A stretch of DNA of 20,893 nucleotides from a bacterium (GCA_023512255.1 JAILZY010000062.1:1-20893); one strand, 5' to 3'; shown: positions 1-20,818, counted from the first letter of the stretch. Notes: generated by a model not told the origin, from the letters alone. Numbers and translations: made by a program.

Positions 1-74
1 ACTTTCTTCTCTCTTTATTTTCTCTCCTCCCCTTTATATTTTCAACATTATTTTTTCAACATGGGGAACATCTG
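1..74. repeat. Left arm of 74-bp terminal inverted repeat
   Basis: This segment is the exact reverse complement of 20819-20892. It is pyrimidine-rich on this strand (runs of ctttctctcc type) and contains the last nine codons and the stop of the gene ending at 48. Matching stops abruptly inside the window (next base c here, non-matching at the other end). It could be one end of a longer dispersed repeat at which an assembly broke, or a true terminal inverted repeat. Confidence 0.9.
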
Positions 75-842
75 CTTGAAGGGCATAATCCTTCTTATTC
101 CTATCAGGGTCAATAATCCGATGAGGAAAAGCAGACCAGTAGCCGGAATCGGGGTGGCTGGTGAGGGCTGAGGATTGCCCACAGGGGGCAGTGGCTGAAT
201 ATTGCCAGCAGCAGGATTAGTCTGGCTGCCACCAGAGGTTATCGACTGATGGGTATCAGAGTTAAATGAGAAATTCGCAGTCGCAAGCTCACCTTCCCCT
301 GCTACTCTCTTACTGATTACGCCGCCGTAGGCATGATGGAGAGCCCGATAGCGAATGTCGCCAGGGAGAGGGTCAAATATCGAATCGAGAACAAGATCTT
401 GCCCCTGCTGGTCGATGTCGGAAATAGCTTGCCCCTGCTTATCACTGAAAATGTTCTCCCCTTGCTCATGAGCAAAGAAAAAATCATCGCCTTCAAAATC
501 AGGGAGAATGAGCGTATCTTCAGCAGCGGCCAAAAGAGTTTTAACCTCATTTATTGCTGGTCTCACATCCTGCGGCATATAAATCTGATCAGCAGAAGAG
601 AAGGAGAGTTTTTCTGCCTTCCCTGCCGCGGCTGAGCTTAAAATACCACGGCCGCCCCCGGTAGCCTCAGAGTATCTGGTTTCATTCGGCTGAGGCTGGC
701 AGCTAATCATGCTGGCATTTTCTAGCTGCTTCTGGTGGCCAAAGGCTTTTCTTCCGACACCAACTTTTGTTGGGATACAGGCGATATTAATCGAGATTCC
801 TATGATAAATACGATAAAGCTAAATAGCTTAAATTGACTCAT
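48..842 (-). CDS. Exported protein with C-terminal sorting-like tail, function unknown
   Basis: 264 residues. The N terminus has a hydrophobic export segment (about residues 5-22) ending in IAC, which resembles a lipobox but has N at -3, so lipidation is doubtful. The middle (about 60-210) is low-complexity, acidic and Gln/Gly-rich with no family I recognise. A Pro-rich linker (about 215-232) leads into PIPATG, a hydrophobic stretch (LLFLIGLLTLIGI) and a basic IRR, the three-part layout of PEP-CTERM/VPLPA-type or LPXTG-type surface-sorting signals. Unusually, a further 12 residues follow the basic cluster, and the last nine codons lie in the 74-bp terminal repeat, so the original C terminus may have been altered. 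The start is supported by AGGAG seven bases upstream. Surface attachment is inferred; no sorting enzyme is in the window. Confidence 0.7.
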   Translation of the reverse strand: MSQFKLFSFIVFIIGISINIACIPTKVGVGRKAFGHQKQLENASMISCQPQPNETRYSEATGGGRGILSSAAAGKAEKLSFSSADQIYMPQDVRPAINEVKTLLAAAEDTLILPDFEGDDFFFAHEQGENIFSDKQGQAISDIDQQGQDLVLDSIFDPLPGDIRYRALHHAYGGVISKRVAGEGELATANFSFNSDTHQSITSGGSQTNPAAGNIQPLPPVGNPQPSPATPIPATGLLFLIGLLTLIGIRRIMPFKQMFPMLKK

Positions 843-6997: not shown

Positions 6998-7140
6998 TTA
7001 GTGGTCTTTTCGCTAATAAAGTGCGCAAGCTGGGCAATAAAGTGCGCAAGCTGAGCGGGCATAAGGTCCGCCCCTACAATTGATAGCGTAATTGGATCTG
7101 CTGCGCACTTGTATTACGCACTTAGCGAAAGAACCACTAA
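6998..7140 (+). mobile_element. MITE-like element, family 1 copy B
   Basis: The best-preserved copy. Ends TTAGTGGTCTTTTCGCTAA (6998-7016) and TTAGCGAAAGAACCACTAA (7122-7140) are inverted, with two mismatches in 19. Inside, AATAAAGTGCGCAAGCTG is present twice in tandem, followed by the family core CGCCCCTACAATTGATAGCG. No open frame. It inserts just after the propeller terminator. Confidence 0.8.
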
Positions 7141-7171
7141 GTTCCTGTGCAGGGGGCGGGGCGACAGGAAC
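7141..7171. repeat. Small inverted repeat between the two elements
   Basis: GTTCCTGT and ACAGGAAC flank a G-rich loop (gcagggggcggggcg). It directly abuts element copy B. Function unknown. Confidence 0.5.
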
Positions 7172-7272: not shown

Positions 7273-7406
7273 TTAGTGGTTCTTTCGCTAACAAAGTGCG
7301 CAAGCTGGGGGCGAACCCCAAGGTCTGTCCCTACAATTAGCTTATCCGCCCCTACAATTGATAGCGTAATTGATCCGCTGCCCACTTGTGTTACGCACTT
7401 AGCGAT
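7273..7406 (+). mobile_element. MITE-like element, family 1 copy C, right end degraded
   Basis: Starts with TTAGTGGTTCTTTCGCTAA (7273-7291) and carries the same core (CGCCCCTACAATTGATAGCG, GTGTTACGCACTTAGCGA). After that the right arm departs from the family and continues as a tandem TTAGCGATAAGG repeat, reaching almost to the antitoxin start codon. It lies in the same orientation as copy B, about 130 bases away. Confidence 0.7.
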
Positions 7407-11852: not shown

Positions 11853-12069
11853 AGATTCTCTTCTCCTTAAAAACAAACTGGCATATTTTTGAGCATTCAA
11901 GAGGCTTCTTTTTACAGCCTTCTTGTTTAGCTTCTTGGATAATGATTTTTTCAGAGAATCTCTTCAATAACCTTGCGCCCATCTAACCCACCTGAAATTT
12001 TGCGCCCGTCTAGCTTCACTTGAGTTGAAAGACCTTGAGACGATTTTATCTTTTAGGGGAAAAGAAAAT

Positions 12070-12085
12070 GCAATTGGAATGCCTG
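12070..12085 (-). promoter_or_regulatory. Possible sigma-54 promoter of the protease gene
   Basis: Minus strand AGGCAT-TCCAA-TTGCA: GG and GC at the required 10-base spacing, but first and sixth positions of the -24 box differ from TGGCAC. About 205 bases upstream of the start codon. Confidence 0.4.
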
Positions 12086-12149
12086 ATTGACGGAAAAATT
12101 TGCAGAAAAAGTATGTAGCTTTATATGAAAAATACTCCCCTTTTAAGCC

Positions 12150-12188
12150 GATGCTCTCCTTACCGTGAATATCGGTAAGGAGAGCATC
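12150..12188. terminator. Strong hairpin after the 12252 gene
   Basis: Perfect 16-bp arms GATGCTCTCCTTACCG (12150-12165) and CGGTAAGGAGAGCATC (12173-12188), seven-base loop, about 64 bases past the stop of the minus-strand gene. No U-tract on that strand, so termination is only probable. Confidence 0.5.
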
Positions 12189-12251
12189 TTTCGATAGAGA
12201 CCGGATTGTGTTCATTAGAGTGGATTAATTACTATTCTCACCCCTATGAAC

Positions 12252-12773
12252 CTATTTAGAGCTGGCAGTAGTCGCACCAGAAGAAGATAGCTGCTTCAGC
12301 AAAGAGGTCCAGCCCAGTAAGTCAGATTGCCCTTGCAGTATGGAAAGCCTTTGCAGTTCGTATAATCCGCCCAGTCCGTAGAGTCCGCCGAGTCCATACA
12401 GTCCGCCCAATCCGAAAAGTCCGCTCAAGCCGTAGAGTCCGCCAAGTCCGTAGTACCATTCACCCAATCCGTACAGTGAGCCCAGTCCGAAAAGTCCGCC
12501 ATAGAGTCCGCCATATAAACTGCCTAACCCATACAATCCGGATAATCCATAAAGTCCTAAATCGTATCCTCCATACCACCAGTCGGGGAATAAGCTGCCT
12601 AAACCATACCAACCACTTCCATAATATCCTGTATATCCTGTCCCATAAAGGCCACCTATCCCATAAAGGCCATATGAGCAATTCCCCAAGGTGGGAAAAG
12701 CAAGTGCCAGCATTGCTGGTATTATAAGAAAAGCCAATGCACCTTTTAGAGTTTTTTTACCGAAGATCAGCAT
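12252..12773 (-). CDS. Exported Gly/Leu/Tyr-repeat protein
   Basis: 173 residues from the ATG at 12773, which has AAGGAG seven bases upstream; an ATG ten codons earlier (12803) lacks such a site. Signal peptide about 1-33 (LKGALAFLIIPAMLALAFP). The mature part, about 36-143, is a repeat with a six-residue period of the type GLYGLG (18-bp DNA period) with W/Y-rich interruptions such as DWWYGGYDLG. A short ordinary tail ends in LSSSGATTASSK. Unknown function. Its neighbour 13184-13819 has the same layout, so they look like diverged relatives. Such repeats suggest a structural, self-associating extracellular protein, which is inference. Confidence 0.8.
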   Translation of the reverse strand: MLIFGKKTLKGALAFLIIPAMLALAFPTLGNCSYGLYGIGGLYGTGYTGYYGSGWYGLGSLFPDWWYGGYDLGLYGLSGLYGLGSLYGGLYGGLFGLGSLYGLGEWYYGLGGLYGLSGLFGLGGLYGLGGLYGLGGLYELQRLSILQGQSDLLGWTSLLKQLSSSGATTASSK

Positions 12774-13183
12774 CGAAGCTCTCCTTGAAACATAACCCTG
12801 CACTGCCTGCTGTTGAGATTTTTCCTGTAACCATTAATGTCTTCCAGGATATGTTATGTTCTTAAGCCTCTTTGATCTTCACCTAACCATCCCACACGAG
12901 CCTTGTTTTTAGGAGGGATTGCACCCGGCTGCTCAAGCTAAGATGCCAAAACCTGGATGCAACCCCTCCCGGTATCAGGAACCGGTTGGGGGGGAGTTAC
13001 ATACCGATCCCTGACCCTAACTTAAGAGTATTTTATTCACCCCTAACAGCATTATCTTGTATCTTTATCTTTCTTAACCAAAAATTCCCCCCTCATCCCC
13101 CCAAAAAACCTTATTCCCCAAAGCCGCTGCTTTTTCCCATAGCCTGGGGTAAATTCTCTCCCTCCTGGCTCTCTGAAGTGTGA
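12774..13183. other. Intergenic region between the two repeat-protein genes
   Basis: About 410 bases. It holds an imperfect 15-bp inverted repeat (GGAGGGATTGCACCC 12912-12926, GGATGCAACCCCTCC 12955-12969) with a long loop, and a C-rich stretch around 13080-13120. No promoter or gene could be supported. Confidence 0.5.
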
Positions 13184-13819
13184 TCATGGGACTAGGCTAA
13201 CCGCGTTGGCAGTAGCGGCACCTGCCGCTGTAGTGGCTGCCGTCACCTGGCTGCTCTGTGAGAGCGGAGAAGAGAAGATAGCTGCCAGCAGAAGAGGCTG
13301 CCATGCCGGATTCCCCAATCCTCCACTTATCAGAAGCTGAAGCCCCAAAGAACGCAGGCTGCTCAATCCATAAGATCCGAAAATATTTGCAGATCCGAAA
13401 AGATAGGCCAGGTTTTCTAAACCATCCTCTTTCCCAAGACCTGAGAGCCAAAGATTGCCTAGACCGTATAATCCTAAGCCATACCAGGTCGGCCCGTATA
13501 ATCCCAGGCCGTACAATCCACCGTACAATCCAAGACTGGAGAGTCCTAACCCTAGGCTGCCAAAAAGCCCTCCCGTTAAACCAGCAGACAGAGCGTATAA
13601 TCCAGGGTAATACGGTGGCACTCCTACCATCGGCAGGCCTGTGTAGCCTCCTGTCATCCCCACCAGGCTAGCAGCAGATAAAGAGGGATAAGCATAGCTT
13701 TGGTATGGCGAAGCATAGCTGGCGTAGCCCCCGTAAAGCCCGTAATAGGCTAGGCTGCCTCTCGGCCAGATAGCCACCATAATGCCAAAAGCCAAAGCCA
13801 ACCGGTGAGCTGTTTTCAT
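13184..13819 (-). CDS. Exported Gly/Leu/Tyr-rich repeat protein, predicted sigma-54 controlled
   Basis: 211 residues. Signal peptide about 1-24 (LALAFGIMVAIWPRGSLA, cleavage before YYG). The mature N-terminal part is Tyr/Ser/Ala-rich (YGGYASYASPYQSYAYPSL); about 80-135 is GLYGGLYGLGLYG-type repeat; about 150-175 is Leu-rich; the tail is Ala/Thr-rich (TAATTAAGAATANA). Unknown function. GGGGGGAGG directly precedes the ATG. A nearly perfect sigma-54 promoter lies about 110 bases upstream, and paired TTAACYGCA words are further up, so expression should need an activator such as the one at 15654-16703. Confidence 0.8.
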   Translation of the reverse strand: MKTAHRLALAFGIMVAIWPRGSLAYYGLYGGYASYASPYQSYAYPSLSAASLVGMTGGYTGLPMVGVPPYYPGLYALSAGLTGGLFGSLGLGLSSLGLYGGLYGLGLYGPTWYGLGLYGLGNLWLSGLGKEDGLENLAYLFGSANIFGSYGLSSLRSLGLQLLISGGLGNPAWQPLLLAAIFSSPLSQSSQVTAATTAAGAATANAVSLVP

Positions 13820-13926
13820 CCTCCCCCCTCGAATCGATCATATCATCAATTCGTCGATCATGTTTTCCAGAGAATTTCAGTTGAGCTTGTTTTCTTCCTG
13901 CTCTTTTTATTTTCCCTTATAAGAAA

Positions 13927-13942
13927 TGCAAGGTATGTGCCA
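13927..13942 (-). promoter_or_regulatory. Sigma-54 promoter of the 13184-13819 gene
   Basis: Minus strand TGGCAC-ATACC-TTGCA, an exact match to the -24/-12 consensus (GG-N10-GC). It reads toward the repeat-protein gene. Confidence 0.85.
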
Positions 13943-14011
13943 TTATGCGAGCTAGCTTAATAAGTGCTTTAAAATCTGCTTAAAGCAGGGTAATCTTGAG
14001 AACTACCATAA

Positions 14012-14043
14012 AACTGATTAACTGCAAAAACTGATTAACCGCA
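14012..14043 (-). promoter_or_regulatory. Candidate activator sites upstream of the sigma-54 promoter
   Basis: Two direct copies of ACTGATTAACYGCA with a 17-bp period (TTAACTGCA 14018-14026, TTAACCGCA 14035-14043), roughly 80-100 bases upstream of the -24 box, where enhancer-binding proteins usually bind. Confidence 0.5.
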
Positions 14044-14319
14044 CAGAGTATATGAAAGGAAGCAAAAAGCAGAGGATAAACGTATTGGAAAATAGGGACC
14101 TAATTGGCATAGAGTCTATTCCTCCTTGGGCAATAAAATTTATGCTGTCAGCACCGTTTTTAGCGAATCGCTCTTCTGACTTGATCAGAAAAAGGGGAAG
14201 GGGAAAGGGGCTTGTTCTGAAGGCGGGAAAAACTGCTACTGTGGCATCGGCATCTTGCCAGTGGACGGGGTTATCCTGAAGGCGCGGGGGCAAGAACTGA
14301 AGAAGATGGTAAGAATTTT

Positions 14320-14447
14320 CGCTCTTTTATTTATTAGCTACCATTGAGAGACATAACCCTAATAAGAGCTAAGCCCCTTCGAGGATTTATGGTTGTTCTG
14401 ATATAGGGTTTATGGTGTCTGATAATGGTGTCTGATATATAAGAGCG
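14320..14447. mobile_element. MITE, family 2 copy 1, with 8-bp target duplication
   Basis: 128 bp bounded by inverted ends CGCTCTT.../...AAGAGCG and flanked by exact 8-bp duplications AGAATTTT (14312-14319 and 14448-14455). It is nearly identical in reverse to 20134-20246, differing mainly by an internal 13-bp duplication (ATGGTGTCTGATA twice) and a 2-bp difference near one end. No coding capacity. Confidence 0.92.
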
Positions 14448-14480
14448 AGAATTTTTTAACAAATTATTGATTTGAATAAA

Positions 14481-15239
14481 TTAGTGAATTGTGGGTTTTC
14501 GGAAAGCCAGGTTGATATAATCAGTGATCCGGTGTAGGTCTTCGGTTTTAATGTTAAAAAATTTCACCCCTACATCTTTCCAAGGGAAGCGCAAATGCTC
14601 TCTAGCCCATTTAATCTCTCCCAGGATATGGATTGGGTCTGCAGAGAAGGGAAGCAGAATGTTTAGCGTAACATAAGGAAGTATCCTGGTTGAGTCGCTG
14701 ACCACAAGCTTAATGCCATCTTTGCTTAAATCCATCCCCTTGGAAATCATCTCTTCCTGAAAGCTGTCATACATGTCACTGAAGTGATACTTAACTAAAA
14801 TCTTAGTCGATGCCCTGATCTCCTTCCTTCGATCATGGGGCATGGTATTTGGTGGCATTGGTTCGGTTTCAAACTCTTTGGCAAGTTGAATTTCTTTTAT
14901 TATTACTGGTAGATATTCCAAGATCAACGATTTTATTGGGCAGGCGTACGGTTTTTCCTGTTGAGAGATTTCTATGGCTTGTTGAGTCAGTAGGCGACAG
15001 AGGAAGAGAAGTCTGAGTGAGGGATCGAGTTTATGCATCTGTCTGCTGATGGCTATCTCTTCTTCTTTGGTGACATTGGAACTTATGATGAGAAGATCGT
15101 ATTTGCGGACCTGAACCATGAATTTGGCCGCTTCGATATTCTCAACCGTATCGACGTAATGCCCATCCATGAGCAGATAGTTGCAAATGTAATCTGCAAA
15201 GGAATCTTTACTTATCAATAAAATTAACAAATCCCCCAT
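14481..15239 (-). CDS. Pseudo-receiver/PilZ protein, predicted c-di-GMP sensor
   Basis: 252 residues. About 1-120 has receiver-like alternation (LLILLISKDSF, KYDLLIISSN, CPIKSL), but the phospho-acceptor position after the third strand is Ser (IISSN) and the acidic pair is poor, so phosphorylation is unlikely. About 136-245 is a PilZ domain with both c-di-GMP motifs: R138-KEI-R142 and D170-LSKD-G175. PilZ proteins change conformation on binding c-di-GMP and act on motility, secretion or exopolysaccharide machinery. AGGAGG lies 11 bases upstream. A sigma-54-like promoter and a large hairpin precede it, and the gene encoding a sigma-54 activator lies immediately upstream on the same strand. Confidence 0.88.
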   Translation of the reverse strand: MGDLLILLISKDSFADYICNYLLMDGHYVDTVENIEAAKFMVQVRKYDLLIISSNVTKEEEIAISRQMHKLDPSLRLLFLCRLLTQQAIEISQQEKPYACPIKSLILEYLPVIIKEIQLAKEFETEPMPPNTMPHDRRKEIRASTKILVKYHFSDMYDSFQEEMISKGMDLSKDGIKLVVSDSTRILPYVTLNILLPFSADPIHILGEIKWAREHLRFPWKDVGVKFFNIKTEDLHRITDYINLAFRKPTIH

Positions 15240-15274
15240 TTATAAATCATCCTCCTAACTTTTTATATAACGGG

Positions 15275-15334
15275 CAATGGGTAGGAGCGGCCCTTTTGGC
15301 CGCTTTTTCCGACAAGATGCCGGCCTACCCATTG
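15275..15334. repeat. Nested hairpin in the leader of the PilZ gene
   Basis: Outer arms CAATGGGTAGG (15275-15285) and CCTACCCATTG (15324-15334); inner stem AGCGGCC/GGCCGCT (15286-15292, 15298-15304) followed by T5 on the plus strand. The GTAGG-GCGGCC...GGCCGC style is like common short dispersed repeats. On the plus strand it could also terminate readthrough. Confidence 0.65.
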
Positions 15335-15424
15335 GGGGGATGTTAATAACTAAGGTTATTAAATGCCTTCCTCAGAAATACCCCTGCTTATTGACCATAC
15401 ATTTTTGTTTTGCCTCTTCTTTTG

Positions 15425-15440
15425 TGCAAAAGAGATACCA
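15425..15440 (-). promoter_or_regulatory. Probable sigma-54 promoter of the PilZ gene
   Basis: Minus strand TGGTAT-CTCTT-TTGCA: invariant GG and GC at 10-base spacing, with pyrimidine substitutions in the -24 box that are common. About 185 bases upstream of the PilZ start. Confidence 0.6.
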
Positions 15441-15653
15441 ATTTATTTTTCTCCGCAGATAAGCGAAATAACTTATTGTAATCAAACACCTTAATAAAAA
15501 AGCTAGGCTATTTTTAGGCTATTTTATATAAAGACAGAGGAAAGCTTCGAGCCGCTATTTATTATTTTTATGGCTTAAAAAACCATCTGCCAGCGGTTGG
15601 TAAGCTAACTTACTGTGTAAAAAAGGTTTTTCCCTTTTCGGTATTTTTATGAA

Positions 15654-16703
15654 TCACTTCATAGAATCTATGGAAGAAGAGCTGCTTAGGCTTCCTCTGG
15701 CTCGCCTTCTTTCTTCCGGATCCAGAATATGGTGTTTTTTGATAAAGTAGCTGAGGTTACGCTGATCAATACCCAGCAGTTTGGAGGCTCTGGTTTTCAC
15801 CCAGTTAGCTTTATTTAGTGCCTTGAGAATAAGCTGGCGCTCATAAGTTTTTAACTGCATTTTTAAATTGAATTCATGTTCAGGAGGTATCGTTTTCTGG
15901 CGATTTTCCGTAAGTAGATAGTGAGGCAAGGATGAGACTTGAATAGTGTCGGTACTTTCCATAATGACGGCGTTTTCGATTACATTCTTCAACTCACGGA
16001 TATTCCCCGGCCAGTTATAGGATACCAGAATATCCATAGCCTCATTAGAAACCTTCTTGATTTTTCGATTTGCTCGGCAATTATCCAATTGAATGAACCG
16101 ATTTACTAGGATCGGTATATCCTCTTTCCGCTCACGGAGTGGAGGCAAAAAGATGGTAACTACACTCAGCCGATAGTAAAGATCTTCACGAAACGCCCCG
16201 TTTTCCGAAGCCTTTTTCAGCATGACGTTAGTTGTGGCAATTACCCGCACATCTACTTTGATCGGAGTGGACACACCAACAGGGACAATTTCATCCTCTT
16301 GCAGGACCCGCAACAGCTTGGCCTGACCTGGGAAGGACATGTTTCCGATTTCATCCAGAAGAATAGTTCCGCCGTCAGCTAGTTCAAATCTGCCCTTTCG
16401 ACTCTCAAAAGCGCCGGTAAAAGACCCCTTCCGGTGGCCGAAAAGCTCGCTTTCTAGTAGGGTATCGCTTAGAGCCGCGCAATTCACCTTGATGAATGGC
16501 TTGTTGGCCCGCAGACTGTGAGCGTGGATGGCGTTAGCTACTAATTCCTTTCCCGTTCCACTCTCTCCTTGTACTAAAACTGTAGCCTTGGTTTTAGCTA
16601 CCACCCCGATCAGCCGACAAATCTCCCGAATTTTCTCACTCTTTCCCAGGATATTGGAAACTTCATCACACTGATACTGAATCGCCATGCCCTCATCCCT
16701 CAT
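15654..16703 (-). CDS. Sigma-54 activator with AAA+ and Fis-type HTH domains, no sensor domain (PspF-like)
   Basis: 349 residues. Only about 18 residues precede the AAA+ domain, so there is no receiver, PAS or GAF part; control must come from partners, expression or ligand binding to AAA+. Motifs: Walker A GESGTGKE (46-53), sigma-54 contact loop GSFTGA (93-98, Ser in place of the usual first Ala), Walker B ILLDEIG (114-120), and REDLYYRL (172-179). WPGNIRELKNVIENAVI follows, then a Fis-type HTH (about 290-326: ILKALNKANWVKTRASKLLGI...NLSYFIKKHHI). It hydrolyses ATP to open sigma-54 promoter complexes. A sigma-54 promoter lies just upstream, suggesting autoregulation, and the PilZ gene lies immediately downstream on the same strand. 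Confidence 0.95.
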   Translation of the reverse strand: MRDEGMAIQYQCDEVSNILGKSEKIREICRLIGVVAKTKATVLVQGESGTGKELVANAIHAHSLRANKPFIKVNCAALSDTLLESELFGHRKGSFTGAFESRKGRFELADGGTILLDEIGNMSFPGQAKLLRVLQEDEIVPVGVSTPIKVDVRVIATTNVMLKKASENGAFREDLYYRLSVVTIFLPPLRERKEDIPILVNRFIQLDNCRANRKIKKVSNEAMDILVSYNWPGNIRELKNVIENAVIMESTDTIQVSSLPHYLLTENRQKTIPPEHEFNLKMQLKTYERQLILKALNKANWVKTRASKLLGIDQRNLSYFIKKHHILDPEERRRARGSLSSSSSIDSMK

Positions 16704-16705
16704 AT

Positions 16706-16749
16706 TGCAGTTTCCTCAATCTTGTGCAGTTTCCTTAAATATTGCAGTT
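16706..16749 (-). promoter_or_regulatory. Triple AACTGCA repeat in the activator leader
   Basis: Three copies of AACTGCA on the minus strand (complement at 16706-16712, 16725-16731, 16743-16749) at 19- and 18-base spacing, between the predicted sigma-54 promoter and the ATG. The word matches the TTAACTGCA/TTAACCGCA pair upstream of 13184-13819, so these could be sites for the activator. Confidence 0.45.
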
Positions 16750-16780
16750 TTATCATAAAAATTTACACTTTATTATTAAA

Positions 16781-16796
16781 AGCAAGGTTTATGCCA
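16781..16796 (-). promoter_or_regulatory. Sigma-54 promoter of the activator gene
   Basis: Minus strand TGGCAT-AAACC-TTGCT, one base from the -24/-12 consensus, about 80 bases upstream of the activator start codon. It implies the activator drives its own gene. Confidence 0.75.
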
Positions 16797-16944
16797 TAGG
16801 GCTGGGGGAGCCAAAAAGACAGGAGAAGATGAGGAGAAAGAGGTGCCGGCAAAGTGGGGGTTGCCTGCTGATCAGTGGTTGGGGAAGGGGGCAGGGGGCT
16901 TTGAGACCGCAGCAAAGGGGTGGTTTAACTTTTTGCTCGTGTTC

Positions 16945-17844
16945 TTATTTGCTGGCTAACAAGCCAGATTGATGGTTAATAAACCAGATTCCAACCCATT
17001 CTTTATGCGGATCGTTTTGAATTTCCTGAAGCTGAAGATCCGAGTACTGATCGAGAATCTCCTTTTGATTTCCGTATCCAATGCCTGTCAGGACAAGTGA
17101 GGCACCAGGGCTGAGGAGCGATTTCAGCTCCTGGCTGGCTTGCAGCAGTAAAGAGGTGTGAAGATTGGCCACTACAGCATCAAAACTCACCTTTAAGGGG
17201 AGGGATAAGCAGTCGGCAGTGATGAGGAAAATTTTATCCTGGACCTGATTGAGCTCCATACAAGCTTTGGCCGCCTTAGTGGCTGCAAAATCATGGTCCA
17301 GAGCCACAACCCGTTTTACTCCAAGCACCAAGGCGGCAGCGGCCAGGATTCCCGATCCACACCCAATATCGACCAGGCTGCTAAGCCGCTCTCTGTGCTT
17401 GCAGATCCACTGGAGGCAAAATCGGGTCGTGAAGTGCTGCCCGGTACCAAAAGCCATCCCTGGATCGATTATGACCCTCTTTTCTCCTGCCTTAGCATGG
17501 CCCTGGTCCCAGATCGGTTCAATGACCAGGGTGTTAGCCAAATGAATTGGCTTGAAAAATTCCTTCCATTGAGAAAGATATTTCTCCTCGTCGATTTCCT
17601 GAAGGGTAAGCTCAGGTGAGGGAATTTCAAACCCTAGCTCTTGCAAGGAGGATAAATAGATTCGCATAGATTGCTCAATCCATGAGCGATCAGCCTTAAG
17701 GGGAAATATGCCGTGCAGCAGAATTCGTGAGCTGTCTGGGGAAGAATCGACAAACACTGCCGTAGCCCCAAGGTCCTGAACCTGGCTAACACAAGCATCT
17801 TCAATCTGTGGAGAAATGGCAATAGTTAGCTGCAACCATTTCAT
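16945..17844 (-). CDS. prmA: Ribosomal protein L11 methyltransferase
   Basis: 299 residues, typical length. PrmA trimethylates Lys and N-terminal amines of ribosomal protein L11 using SAM. Landmarks: WKEFFKPI (about 93-100), the PrmA signature IIDPGMAFGTGQHFTT (125-140), the SAM-binding motif LVDIGCGSGILAAAAL (157-172), acidic ALDHD (181-185), and VANLHTSLLL (225-234). It starts three bases after the PIN gene stop, so the two are likely cotranscribed. No defects seen. Confidence 0.95.
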   Translation of the reverse strand: MKWLQLTIAISPQIEDACVSQVQDLGATAVFVDSSPDSSRILLHGIFPLKADRSWIEQSMRIYLSSLQELGFEIPSPELTLQEIDEEKYLSQWKEFFKPIHLANTLVIEPIWDQGHAKAGEKRVIIDPGMAFGTGQHFTTRFCLQWICKHRERLSSLVDIGCGSGILAAAALVLGVKRVVALDHDFAATKAAKACMELNQVQDKIFLITADCLSLPLKVSFDAVVANLHTSLLLQASQELKSLLSPGASLVLTGIGYGNQKEILDQYSDLQLQEIQNDPHKEWVGIWFINHQSGLLASK

Positions 17845-17847
17845 AGG

Positions 17848-18369
17848 TTATCCAATTTTGGCTATTTCCTTAGTATACTGAACAATCCATCCCTCATACC
17901 TGCCGATCTGGCAGATTTTTTCAATTAATCGGTCAACTTCATCCGGGCCGCTGAGCAGATGGCTACGCTGAAGCAGAGCCGGTACCAGGATGGCGCACAG
18001 GAAAGGAATCCGGCGCCTTTTGCAGAGCTTGATCCCTTTACGGTCATCAATCATGACCGCATCTGCTTTCAGCAGATAATAAAGCTCAATGGTGCTCTTC
18101 TCCCCTGCCCCTAAATGCGGCAGCACCACCTGATCGGCTTCGGGAACTGGACAGATGGCTAGCCTCTTTTCCTGAACAAGATCTTGAATCTGACGGGCAT
18201 CATCTGACCATGGACGCCGCATACACTCCTCGTAAACCTGGGGAGAGATGATCAGACGAACAACTTGAGCATAGGGGCGCAGCAGGGACACCTTACTCAG
18301 GTAGATCAGAGAAGAGCTATCTCCGATAATGGTCTGCAATTTGCCCACCACCCACCTTGAATTGATCAC
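17848..18369 (-). CDS. PIN-domain protein of the DUF3368 type
   Basis: 173 residues as drawn from a GTG at 18369. PIN-fold features: IIGDSSSLIYLSKVSLL with the first metal-binding Asp, ISPQVYEEC with an acidic residue, then LGAGEKSTIELYYLLKADAVMIDDRKG, the GE...DD pattern of this family, and an AILVPALLQ segment. A TTG at 18339, just before TIIGDSS, follows AAGGTGG and would match the family start better, so the true protein may be 163 residues. Members are predicted RNases, often toxins, but no antitoxin-like gene is adjacent; it is instead coupled to prmA. Activity is inferred. Confidence 0.8.
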   Translation of the reverse strand: MINSRWVVGKLQTIIGDSSSLIYLSKVSLLRPYAQVVRLIISPQVYEECMRRPWSDDARQIQDLVQEKRLAICPVPEADQVVLPHLGAGEKSTIELYYLLKADAVMIDDRKGIKLCKRRRIPFLCAILVPALLQRSHLLSGPDEVDRLIEKICQIGRYEGWIVQYTKEIAKIG

Positions 18370-18439
18370 TTCCGATCATTGTTTTTAGTCTAACAAGATA
18401 TTGTCTCATCTGATCAGATAGTTTATGATATGAATAGCT

Positions 18440-18455
18440 TATAATATGATATACT
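18440..18455 (+). promoter_or_regulatory. Probable -10 region for the trmJ-rsmE unit
   Basis: TATAAT (18440-18445) and TATACT (18450-18455) lie 30-45 bases before the ATG; -35 boxes are weak. A 12-bp palindrome ATCTGATCAGAT (18408-18419) in the divergent region could be an operator. Confidence 0.4.
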
Positions 18456-18485
18456 ATAACGCAGGATTGGGAAAGGATATTTTTT

Positions 18486-19304
18486 ATGCCTGCACAAATT
18501 TTTCCCCCCGCGGCCAGTGGTGGCTGGGGCATACGAGCTGAGAATATCGTCTTTGTGCTGGTTTCACCAAAAAATGCGGGCAATATCGGAGCCGTGGCCA
18601 GGGCGATGAAAAACATGGGGTTTGAGAATTTGCGGCTGGTCAATCCTCAGCCCTCAAGCTGGCTTAGTGCAATTCAGATGGCCTGTGGAGCAGAAGATCT
18701 GCTAGAGCGGGCAGTGGTGGAAACAAGCCTTGAGAAGGCCTTGGCTGATATCAATTGGATTGTCGGCACTACCGCCCGAAGCAGGAGGCGCTATCACAAA
18801 AGCATTTCCTCTCCCCAGCAGATCGCCCAGGCCGCCACGTCTATAAGTCAGGAGAACAAGATAGCGTTTCTTTTTGGCTCAGAAAAATGTGGCCTGACCA
18901 CAGAGGAAATTAGCCTTTGCCACGCTGTGGTTACTATCCCCACGCGGCAGGATTTTTGCTCCCTGAATCTTTCTCAGGCAGTCATGGTTGTGGCCTGGGA
19001 GCTGTCTAAGCTGCGTGGAGGCGATGAGAGCCATAAGCCCAATGAGCAGCAGCAGCATCACCATGAGCAGCCGTATCAGCCGAGAATGGCTTCCCAGGAG
19101 GAGCTTCAAAGCCTTTTTCTTCATCTTGAGCAGGTCCTGATGGAGATTGAATTTATTACTCCGGAAAATTCCAGACACATGATACTGTCGATCAAAGAGC
19201 TGATTCGCCGCAAGGCTCTAACCAGCAGGGAGGTGAAAATCCTGCGGGGAATCCTCCATAAGGTTCAGATGCATAAGAATCGTGTTGTTCCCCCTCTGCC
19301 ATGA
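18486..19304 (+). CDS. trmJ: SpoU-family RNA methyltransferase, TrmJ type
   Basis: 272 residues. TrmJ 2'-O-methylates position 32 of tRNA anticodon loops; related proteins may have other targets. Trefoil-knot SPOUT motifs: VSPKNAGNIGAVARAMKNMGF (27-46), FLFGSEKCGLTTEE (128-141) and IPTRQDFCSLNLSQAVMVVAWEL (about 151-173). Between the catalytic domain and the C-terminal helical part there is a hydrophilic Gln/His-rich stretch (EQQQQHHHEQPYQ-like, about 186-198) that looks like an insertion. AAAGGA lies eight bases upstream. The stop overlaps the rsmE start by four bases (ATGA). Confidence 0.88.
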   Translation: MPAQIFPPAASGGWGIRAENIVFVLVSPKNAGNIGAVARAMKNMGFENLRLVNPQPSSWLSAIQMACGAEDLLERAVVETSLEKALADINWIVGTTARSRRRYHKSISSPQQIAQAATSISQENKIAFLFGSEKCGLTTEEISLCHAVVTIPTRQDFCSLNLSQAVMVVAWELSKLRGGDESHKPNEQQQHHHEQPYQPRMASQEELQSLFLHLEQVLMEIEFITPENSRHMILSIKELIRRKALTSREVKILRGILHKVQMHKNRVVPPLP

Positions 19305-20089
19305 GTGAGCAAAAGCCGGGGCTAGCTATGGACATACCACAATCAAGAATCATTTTGGCCGAGACTGCTTTAGTGGATCATGACTACGAATTGTCTGGCC
19401 CTTCACGACAGGCTCTTGAGAGATGGGATCCGCGGCCTGGGGAAATAATCACGGTTTTGGATGAGAGCCGGCAGAGTTTTCGCGGCCGGATTGTTGAGCT
19501 ATCAGAGGATGCAGCCAAAATCCATATCTTTGCCAAAGCTGATGGCCCAGGCAACAGCGCCGAGCGGGAGATCATTCTCCATCAGGCGCTGCCTGAGAGA
19601 GAGAGGATGGAATTGATTATTCAGAAAGCCACCGAGCTTGGGGTCTGGGCCATTATTCCGTTCAAATCAGCTAGATCCATCTCCCTGCAAGAGCGGGAGC
19701 ATAAGCAGAAAAAGGCTCACTGCTGGCCCAGGATCGCCCTGCGGGCTGCCAAGCAGTGCCGCCGGCCTGATATTCCTCACCTCTTCCCTTTCTGTACCTT
19801 TCAAGAATCGCTGTCCCTGGCCCGGCAAAGCGGGCTTCGGATTATCCTTTGGGAGAAACAGCAAGGGGGGATATCTTTGGCCGATCTTGTGCATCGGCAA
19901 GCTGACTTTAAAAGGATCTCGGTCATGGTCGGTCCTGAAGGTGGATTTACCAAGGATGAGGTTACTGTGGCCAGACAGGAGGGATTTGAACCCTTTCGTC
20001 TCGGCCCCCGTATATTGAGAACAGAAACAGCCTCTCTGGCCATTCTCAGTATCCTTCAATTTATGATTGGTGATTTGGGTAAAAACTAA
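19301..20089 (+). CDS. rsmE: 16S rRNA m3U1498 methyltransferase
   Basis: 262 residues. RsmE methylates U1498 of 16S rRNA. Landmarks: an N-terminal PUA-like region, ERMELIIQKATELGVWAIIPF (101-121) and RAAKQCRRPDIP (148-159). The SPOUT core is VMVGPEGGFTKDEV (208-221) and FRLGPRILRTETASLAIL (232-249). The start overlaps the trmJ stop, giving translational coupling of two rRNA/tRNA methylases. An ATG nine codons later is a possible alternative start. MITE family 2 copy 2 inserts 44 bases after the stop. Confidence 0.95.
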   Translation: MSEQKPGLAMDIPQSRIILAETALVDHDYELSGPSRQALERWDPRPGEIITVLDESRQSFRGRIVELSEDAAKIHIFAKADGPGNSAEREIILHQALPERERMELIIQKATELGVWAIIPFKSARSISLQEREHKQKKAHCWPRIALRAAKQCRRPDIPHLFPFCTFQESLSLARQSGLRIILWEKQQGGISLADLVHRQADFKRISVMVGPEGGFTKDEVTVARQEGFEPFRLGPRILRTETASLAILSILQFMIGDLGKN

Positions 20090-20133
20090 GGCAAGCGGTT
20101 TTCCCAAACTTTTCATGGGATAGATACAATCCT

Positions 20134-20246
20134 CGCTCTTATATATCAGACACCATAAACCCTATATCAGAACAACAATAAACCCTCGAAGAGGCTTAGC
20201 TCTTATTAGGGTTATGTCTCTCAATGGTAGCTAATAAATAAGAGCA
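20134..20246. mobile_element. MITE, family 2 copy 2, with 8-bp target duplication
   Basis: 113 bp, inverted ends CGCTCTTATATA and (complement) TGCTCTTATTTA, flanked by exact 8-bp duplications ACAATCCT (20126-20133 and 20247-20254). It is the reverse of 14320-14447 with few differences. The right duplication overlaps the last base of the stop codon of the 20254 gene, so the insertion landed exactly at the gene's end. Confidence 0.92.
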
Positions 20247-20253
20247 ACAATCC

Positions 20254-20496
20254 TTACACCATCTTGAAAAGAGGACGAATCACCTTTTTCACCACCCAAT
20301 CGTAGTCTGGAGGAGTATCTGAGTGAGCTATCTCTCCCATGACATAGACCGATTCTCCTTGACAATATTTGTGCAATCGCTCAAGAAGGTTCAATGATCG
20401 TTCCTGAAACTCCTGATCAGTAAGATTTTCGTTGTAGCGGTTGAGAAAGTATTCCCGACAGAAGTTCAAAAGGGTGTTGATTTCTGGATATCCCAT
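20254..20496 (-). CDS. Small unknown protein, predicted sigma-54 controlled
   Basis: 80 residues, soluble and mixed-charge, with no signal peptide. It starts MGYPEINTLLNFCREYFLNRY, followed by a charged helix (LTDQEFQERSLNLLERLHKYC) and SDTPPDYDWVVKKVIRPLFKM. I do not recognise the family. It is credible as a gene because AAGGAGG stands nine bases before the ATG, and a sigma-54 promoter with recurring upstream words precedes it. A MITE abuts its stop codon without changing the protein. Confidence 0.7.
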   Translation of the reverse strand: MGYPEINTLLNFCREYFLNRYNENLTDQEFQERSLNLLERLHKYCQGESVYVMGEIAHSDTPPDYDWVVKKVIRPLFKMV

Positions 20497-20568
20497 GCCA
20501 AACAGCCTCCTTGAAGAGAACTTGATTTAGGTTTTTAATTTGTGTTAAATTTTTTGGTTATTTTAGCA

Positions 20569-20584
20569 AGCAATTTTTATGCCA
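20569..20584 (-). promoter_or_regulatory. Sigma-54 promoter of the 20254 gene
   Basis: Minus strand TGGCAT-AAAAA-TTGCT, one base from consensus and almost the same as the activator's own promoter. About 73 bases before the start codon. Confidence 0.75.
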
Positions 20585-20697: not shown

Positions 20698-20818
20698 TTC
20701 TCTGTTTAATTTTTGGCCAGCACGATAAAACTTTTGGTAAAAAACTGCCGAAAGACTTCGGCCATATTGCTTGCACTGCCTGAGAAGGTATATAAAAATT
20801 ATGCTGTTGGTCTGTTTC

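Follow-up and report, generated by a model that had tools for sequence, protein, structure and literature searches.

Four probable sigma-54 promoters and a sensor-less activator gene as part of a predicted genome-wide programme for exported proteins in an uncultured bacterial family

Background

Sigma-54 has been presented as a controller of the bacterial exterior, with promoters that favour genes for cell-surface and secreted material (Francke et al. 2011, PMC3162934). A few activators of the Desulfovibrio vulgaris sigma-54 regulome are sensor-less, and one of them was proposed to be autoregulated (PMC4641369). Other related systems are the RpoN/PrsK-PrsR control of PEP-CTERM proteins (PMC9850573, PMC1569441) and the phage-shock activator PspF. 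The present work concerns contig JAILZY010000062.1 of the bacterial assembly GCA_023512255.1 (C58 in our numbering), whose whole length of 20,893 nucleotides is hereafter called the window, and for which a first-pass annotation had described a local sigma-54 regulon run by an autoregulated, sensor-less activator. Sequence analysis led us to a partly different reading: four sites of the window are probably true sigma-54 promoters, but as members of a programme that extends across the genome and serves exported and surface proteins in an uncultured bacterial family.

The locus resembles each of these systems in part. As reported by Francke et al., sigma-54 promoters stand preferentially ahead of surface-shaping genes; there, however, the genes mostly concern biosynthesis and transport of surface precursors, whereas here they encode the exported proteins themselves, including a family with Gly/Leu/Tyr repeats. 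Dozens of promoters, many activators, upstream enhancer motifs and a GSFTGA loop variant are shared with D. vulgaris, but the targets are others, exactly both sensor-less activators have their own sigma-54 sites, and a single dyad is found for about 26 promoters. Scattered genes for exported proteins with sigma-54 promoters and a predicted upstream enhancer recall the PrsK-PrsR system; PrsR is nevertheless a response regulator, its model scores below cut-off for the window activator, and no PEP-CTERM tail was seen by inspection on the Gly/Tyr proteins. PspF, likewise an AAA+ sigma-54 activator with a helix-turn-helix (HTH) and no sensor domain, differs in that the present genome is without PspA, the model score is below cut-off and the targets are different.

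Results and discussion

Four conserved sigma-54 sites

Four exact matches to TGGYAY-N5-TTGCW were found in the window, all on the minus strand and with GG and GC dinucleotides 10 bp apart. They are TGGCATAAAAATTGCT (20569-20584) ahead of a gene for an 80-residue protein, TGGCATAAACCTTGCT (16781-16796) ahead of the activator gene, TGGTATCTCTTTTGCA (15425-15440) ahead of a gene for a PilZ-domain protein, and TGGCACATACCTTGCA (13927-13942) ahead of the gene for an exported Gly/Leu/Tyr-repeat protein (the Gly/Tyr gene). All four are intergenic and point toward a gene, the distances from the 3' end of the site to the start codon being about 73, 78, 186 and 108 bp, respectively. The first-pass annotation had located them correctly, and its interval of 70-210 bp holds the observed range of 73-186 bp. 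It was also right about their rarity, as 0.10 matches are expected in the window from dinucleotide shuffles, of which the richest had one and none in 100 reached four.

Conservation was assessed in orthologous regions of the genomes closest to that of the window, namely G001 (same genus), G002 and G003 (same family) and G004 (same order). In a comparison of 13 orthologous promoters, changes were seen at 2 of 104 positions for the eight fixed bases of the core and at 25 of 65 for the five bases of the spacer (Fisher test, 2.5e-10), and a core held while the spacer drifts is the signature of selected promoters. The four sites are all kept in G001. The promoters of the PilZ and Gly/Tyr genes are conserved in G001, G002, G003 and G004, with exact sites in G003, where those of the activator and 80-residue genes are CGGCAT variants. 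The activator promoter reads TGGCATAAACATTGCT in G001 and CGGCATGAACTTTGCA in G003, and the 80-residue promoter, conserved in G001, is identical over 16 of 16 bases in G002.

A fifth, looser site had been placed before the protease gene. It lies one base from the position first given, at 12069-12084 on the minus strand (AGGCATTCCAATTGCA, upstream of a subtilase), and has one mismatch, AGGCAT for TGGCAT. The window contains six sites with one mismatch, this one included, and four of the six fall within coding sequence; in G003, the orthologous protease gene has no counterpart of the site ahead of it. The fifth site was therefore regarded as unsupported and left uncounted.

A probable genome-wide sigma-54 programme

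The genome (3.83 Mb in 172 contigs) contains rpoN, proposed earlier as a check on the reading, as an intact frame of 495 residues (PF04552, E 3e-60). Exact sigma-54 sites numbered 93, against 2 for the reversed pattern, and 84 of the 93 were intergenic according to a simple codon-based gene caller. The genes behind them include those for GlnB, pilins, response regulators and many exported proteins, names being taken from inspection of translations, so that the surface or secreted products expected by the first-pass annotation are indeed among the targets. A hydrophobic N-terminus was found for 39 of 66 target genes and for 34 of 121 other genes of the same stretches (P = 4e-5), an enrichment that fits the published theme of sigma-54 controlling the bacterial exterior (PMC3162934). 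Enrichment was also seen at Gly/Leu/Tyr-repeat genes: among the places listed, about 18 in the genome code for LYGxLYG repeats and 9 of these have an exact site upstream (P ~1e-10, assuming an estimate of some 3,300 other genes).

Two enhancer-like dyads

The sigma-54 polymerase would wait at these promoters until an ATP-driven activator bound at an upstream dyad opens them. When the regions upstream of the sites were searched without bias for inverted repeats, TATGAAA-N4-TTTCATA was obtained, and expectation maximisation (EM) converged on the same motif. When up to one mismatch was allowed, the resulting enhancer-like dyad, UAS1 (TATGMAA-N4-TTKCATA), was present in 14 of 81 upstream regions, compared with 0.02 in shuffles, and about 26 promoters had a UAS1 score of 14 or more. 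Its copies are often paired some 20 bp apart and lie roughly 100-240 bp upstream, a typical enhancer distance that also applies to UAS2, described below. In the relatives, 15 of 28 copies were located 60-300 bp ahead of an exact site, compared with 12% at random positions of the same stretches. UAS1 counts were 22, 10, 11 and 9 in the family genomes G000 to G003, with 1 in G004 and 0-1 in every other genome searched. At two loci, L004 (C8:45066) and L247 (in G001), a promoter with UAS1 and a sigma-54 site precedes a 57-residue peptide resembling a precursor of ribosomally synthesised and post-translationally modified peptides (..YEPPRMISYSEEELIEEMEGMAIQACSGF..). UAS1 is absent from all four window promoters and was rejected as their enhancer, the best score in the window being 9.4 of 23.5.

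The PilZ gene (14481-15239, minus strand) encodes 252 residues with a receiver-like N-terminus, weakly matching the CpdR receiver, and a PilZ domain (Pfam E 3e-5) in which RKEIR and DLSKDG were recognised by inspection as putative signature motifs for cyclic di-GMP (c-di-GMP); orthologues occur in G001 to G004. A second dyad, UAS2, is found 232 bp upstream of its promoter as CATAGATTCTATG (CATAG-N3-CTATG; 15660-15672, minus strand), where it overlaps the end of the activator gene. This copy is exact in G001 and diverged but palindromic in G003; in G002, a genome without the activator gene, there are two copies at a spacing of 21 bp. A UAS2-like dyad with one mismatch, AATAGACTCTATG (14108-14120, minus strand), lies 178 bp upstream of the promoter of the Gly/Tyr gene (13184-13819, minus strand; a product of 211 residues known from its translation), and the orthologue in G003 has an exact UAS2, CATAGGTTCTATG, at -117.

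Genome-wide, the UAS2 class CATAR-N3-YTATG has 36 matches. Six copies were upstream of the 84 intergenic sites against 0.19 expected, with none in mirrored downstream stretches, and five remain when PilZ, the source of the motif, is left out (P ~2e-6). The genes behind these other five copies look exported and three of the five products are Gly/Tyr- or Ser/Tyr-rich. UAS2 with one mismatch, or with a near-consensus site, also precedes the Gly/Tyr gene of the window and repeat genes on contigs C26 and C12. The PilZ and Gly/Tyr genes would belong to a UAS2-marked sub-regulon together with other Gly/Tyr-rich exported proteins.

The leader of the PilZ gene contains a stable hairpin (15271-15338, minus strand; -37.3 kcal/mol, z -5.2), whose arms CAATGGGTAGG/CCTACCCATTG are conserved in G001 and G003 with a different interior; it has no Rfam match.

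The 80-residue gene (20254-20496, minus strand) has no match in Pfam or NCBIfam, and its orthologues were found only in the four same-family genomes, with 78-86% identity. Upstream of its promoter, a conserved block, GGCCGAAGTCTTTCGGCAGTTTTTTACC (20722-20763, minus strand), is a candidate enhancer. It is conserved between the window's genome and G001, not recognisable in G002 or G003, and not common to the other window promoters.

The sensor-less activator and its paralogue

The activator gene (15654-16703, minus strand) encodes a sigma-54 activator, or bacterial enhancer-binding protein, of 349 residues. It matches Sigma54_activat, AAA_lid_14 and HTH_8 of Pfam and has the sigma-54-activating AAA+ domain, the Fis-type HTH and a GAFTGA-type loop expected of this class; the loop reads GSFTGA, one of the variants expected to keep activity (PMC4641369). 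The AAA+ domain begins at residue 18 and no domain precedes it, in agreement with the sensor-less nature first attributed to the protein. The designation 'PspF-like' holds for the domain layout only. PspF as an identity was rejected (275.7 against a cut-off of 443.6 bits for TIGR02974; 250.6 against 529 for a second PspF model), and PspA (PF04012) was not matched in the genome, although control genomes gave matches. Identity with the PEP-CTERM regulator PrsR was rejected as well, with 315.8 against 502.6 bits for TIGR02915 and no receiver domain.

Among 25 strong activator matches in the genome, two are sensor-less: the window activator and a paralogue on contig C114, 71% identical to it (the orthologues in G001 and G003 share 97% and 83%). 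These two are also the only ones of the 25 with a same-strand sigma-54 site 122-129 bp ahead of the AAA+ domain. That sensor-less activators are made from sigma-54 promoters suggests control by amount, via cascade or feedback, both of which have been discussed for such proteins in Desulfovibrio (PMC4641369). The level of the window activator, rather than a sensor domain, would probably be what is regulated, with the protein acting either in a cascade downstream of a sensing activator or in feedback on itself.

The paralogue on C114 is the better-supported case of feedback because UAS1 dyads of its presumed regulon precede its own promoter. This UAS1 is found in each of the four genomes of the family and, as a weaker copy, in G004, and the accompanying sigma-54 site is conserved in G001, G002, G003 and G004. 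We infer that the C114 protein binds UAS1 and is autoregulated, while another activator could bind UAS1 in its place. For the window activator autoregulation is no more than plausible: a conserved sigma-54 site lies directly upstream of its own gene, and this site is the part of the earlier proposal that stands, whereas an enhancer common to its own and the other promoters was not found.

According to the first-pass annotation, the window activator would bind upstream of all four local promoters, its own included, and form a local autoregulated surface regulon. In line with this circuit, the activator gene is positioned between the promoters, and G001 and G003, both of which have the activator, conserve its site as well as the others. 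By alignment, the paralogue with UAS1 at its promoter has a closely similar HTH, and the half-sites of UAS2 (TATGRA) and UAS1 (TATGMAA) resemble each other. However, no motif is common to the four promoters: a de novo search of the window promoters and their orthologues (EM, palindromic and not) gave nothing convincingly above shuffles, and UAS2 is absent ahead of the activator and 80-residue genes. Two relatives also speak against the circuit. G002, another genus of the family and 95% complete, keeps the order of the 80-residue gene, prmA, the PilZ gene, the Gly/Tyr gene, the protease gene and rlmN, with three exact sites (80-residue, PilZ and Gly/Tyr genes) and with UAS2. Between prmA and the PilZ gene, however, there is no activator gene, and tblastn shows no remnant of it. 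A C114-type paralogue is present in G002 and an orthologue of the window activator was not found elsewhere, an assembly gap being possible elsewhere though not at the locus. In G004, the PilZ gene and the next gene have exact sites and are followed by the protease, and the activator gene is absent at the locus. The sites kept in these genomes indicate that the PilZ, Gly/Tyr and 80-residue promoters persist independently of the activator gene.

We therefore regard the local circuit as unlikely, and the four promoters do not appear to form one private circuit. They make up 4 of 93 sites genome-wide, and two of the genes behind them share a dyad with Gly/Tyr-rich exported genes elsewhere. What remains of the original proposal is a set of real promoters and a sensor-less activator with its own conserved site; the local character, the control by the window activator and the fifth site do not.

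It is somewhat doubtful, but conceivable, that the window activator is instead a downstream amplifier, switched on by a sensing two-component activator or by the C114 paralogue and then driving distant rather than local genes. Sensor-less activators under sigma-54 promoters fit such a cascade, as raised in PMC4641369, 25 activators are available, and no UAS2 is seen at the activator's own promoter; on the other hand, no target set was identified and UAS1 was not found ahead of the window activator.

Points weighing against the proposed genome-wide programme

Several observations weigh against the reading of the four sites as promoters of a genome-wide surface programme. No enhancer was recognised at the activator's own promoter by motif search or by UAS1 and UAS2 checks, and only the private upstream block was identified as a candidate for the 80-residue gene. 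UAS2 was picked on inspection of the PilZ alignment and of the promoters of the PilZ and Gly/Tyr genes, with counting as a subsequent test; its genome-wide excess is modest (36 against 10 for the reversed control). An unbiased EM run on promoters without UAS1 gave no convincing motif and did not recover UAS2, for which reason UAS2 is considered weaker than UAS1. Most Gly/Tyr-repeat genes without an exact site are also without a near match.

The genome-wide scan suggested by the first-pass annotation gave a divided answer on clustering. Sites are about 8 times as dense in the window as in the genome on average (Poisson P = 0.002 for the window itself). When the 93 sites are placed at random, however, about 5% of placements contain a 6.7-kb stretch with four of them (P = 0.05). 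The clustering is consequently modest, and the exceptional part is that the sites are genuine. This figure is also what could be said for a chance cluster of a degenerate motif, an explanation that we hold to be extremely improbable: it is refuted by the core-specific conservation pattern and is at odds with the expectation of 0.10 matches in the window and with the 2 reversed matches against 93.

Other features of the window

A MITE-like pair (miniature inverted-repeat transposable element) of about 120 bp is found at 14324-14453 and 20128-20244, in opposite orientations and 96% alike, with terminal inverted repeats GCTCTTAT..ATAAGAGC and apparent target duplications of 8-9 bp. Inverted copies of a dispersed repeat family (TTCTTTCGCTAAGTGCGTAACAC) occur at 2728-2854, 7055-7143 and 7277-7405. 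The contig ends, 1-74 and 20819-20892, are perfect reverse complements over 74 bases, suggesting that the assembly probably breaks in a repeat. A gene at 48-842 (minus strand) encodes an exported protein with a PEP-CTERM-like tail, PATGLLFLIGLLTLIGIRR, and no Pfam or NCBIfam match. An Rfam scan of the window returned tRNA only.

Conclusion

It is tempting, although speculative and in our view rather improbable, to imagine that the two sensor-less paralogues, both expressed from sigma-54 promoters of their own, recognise a common TATG-type half-site, facing in UAS1 and back-to-back in UAS2. The surface programme would then be divided in two, with feedback amplifying each branch, and one branch would couple a c-di-GMP-type PilZ protein to the Gly/Leu/Tyr-repeat exported family.

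The programme is ordinary in kind, but its regulon would be unusually clear for an uncultured lineage. For a lineage represented here by metagenome assemblies alone, the predictions provide a concrete and testable map of the promoters and enhancers behind its surface programme, and they give a family of Gly/Leu/Tyr-repeat exported proteins a predicted class of regulator. The same locus, found without the activator in sister genomes, illustrates that an activator gene may be surrounded by apparent targets without being their regulator.

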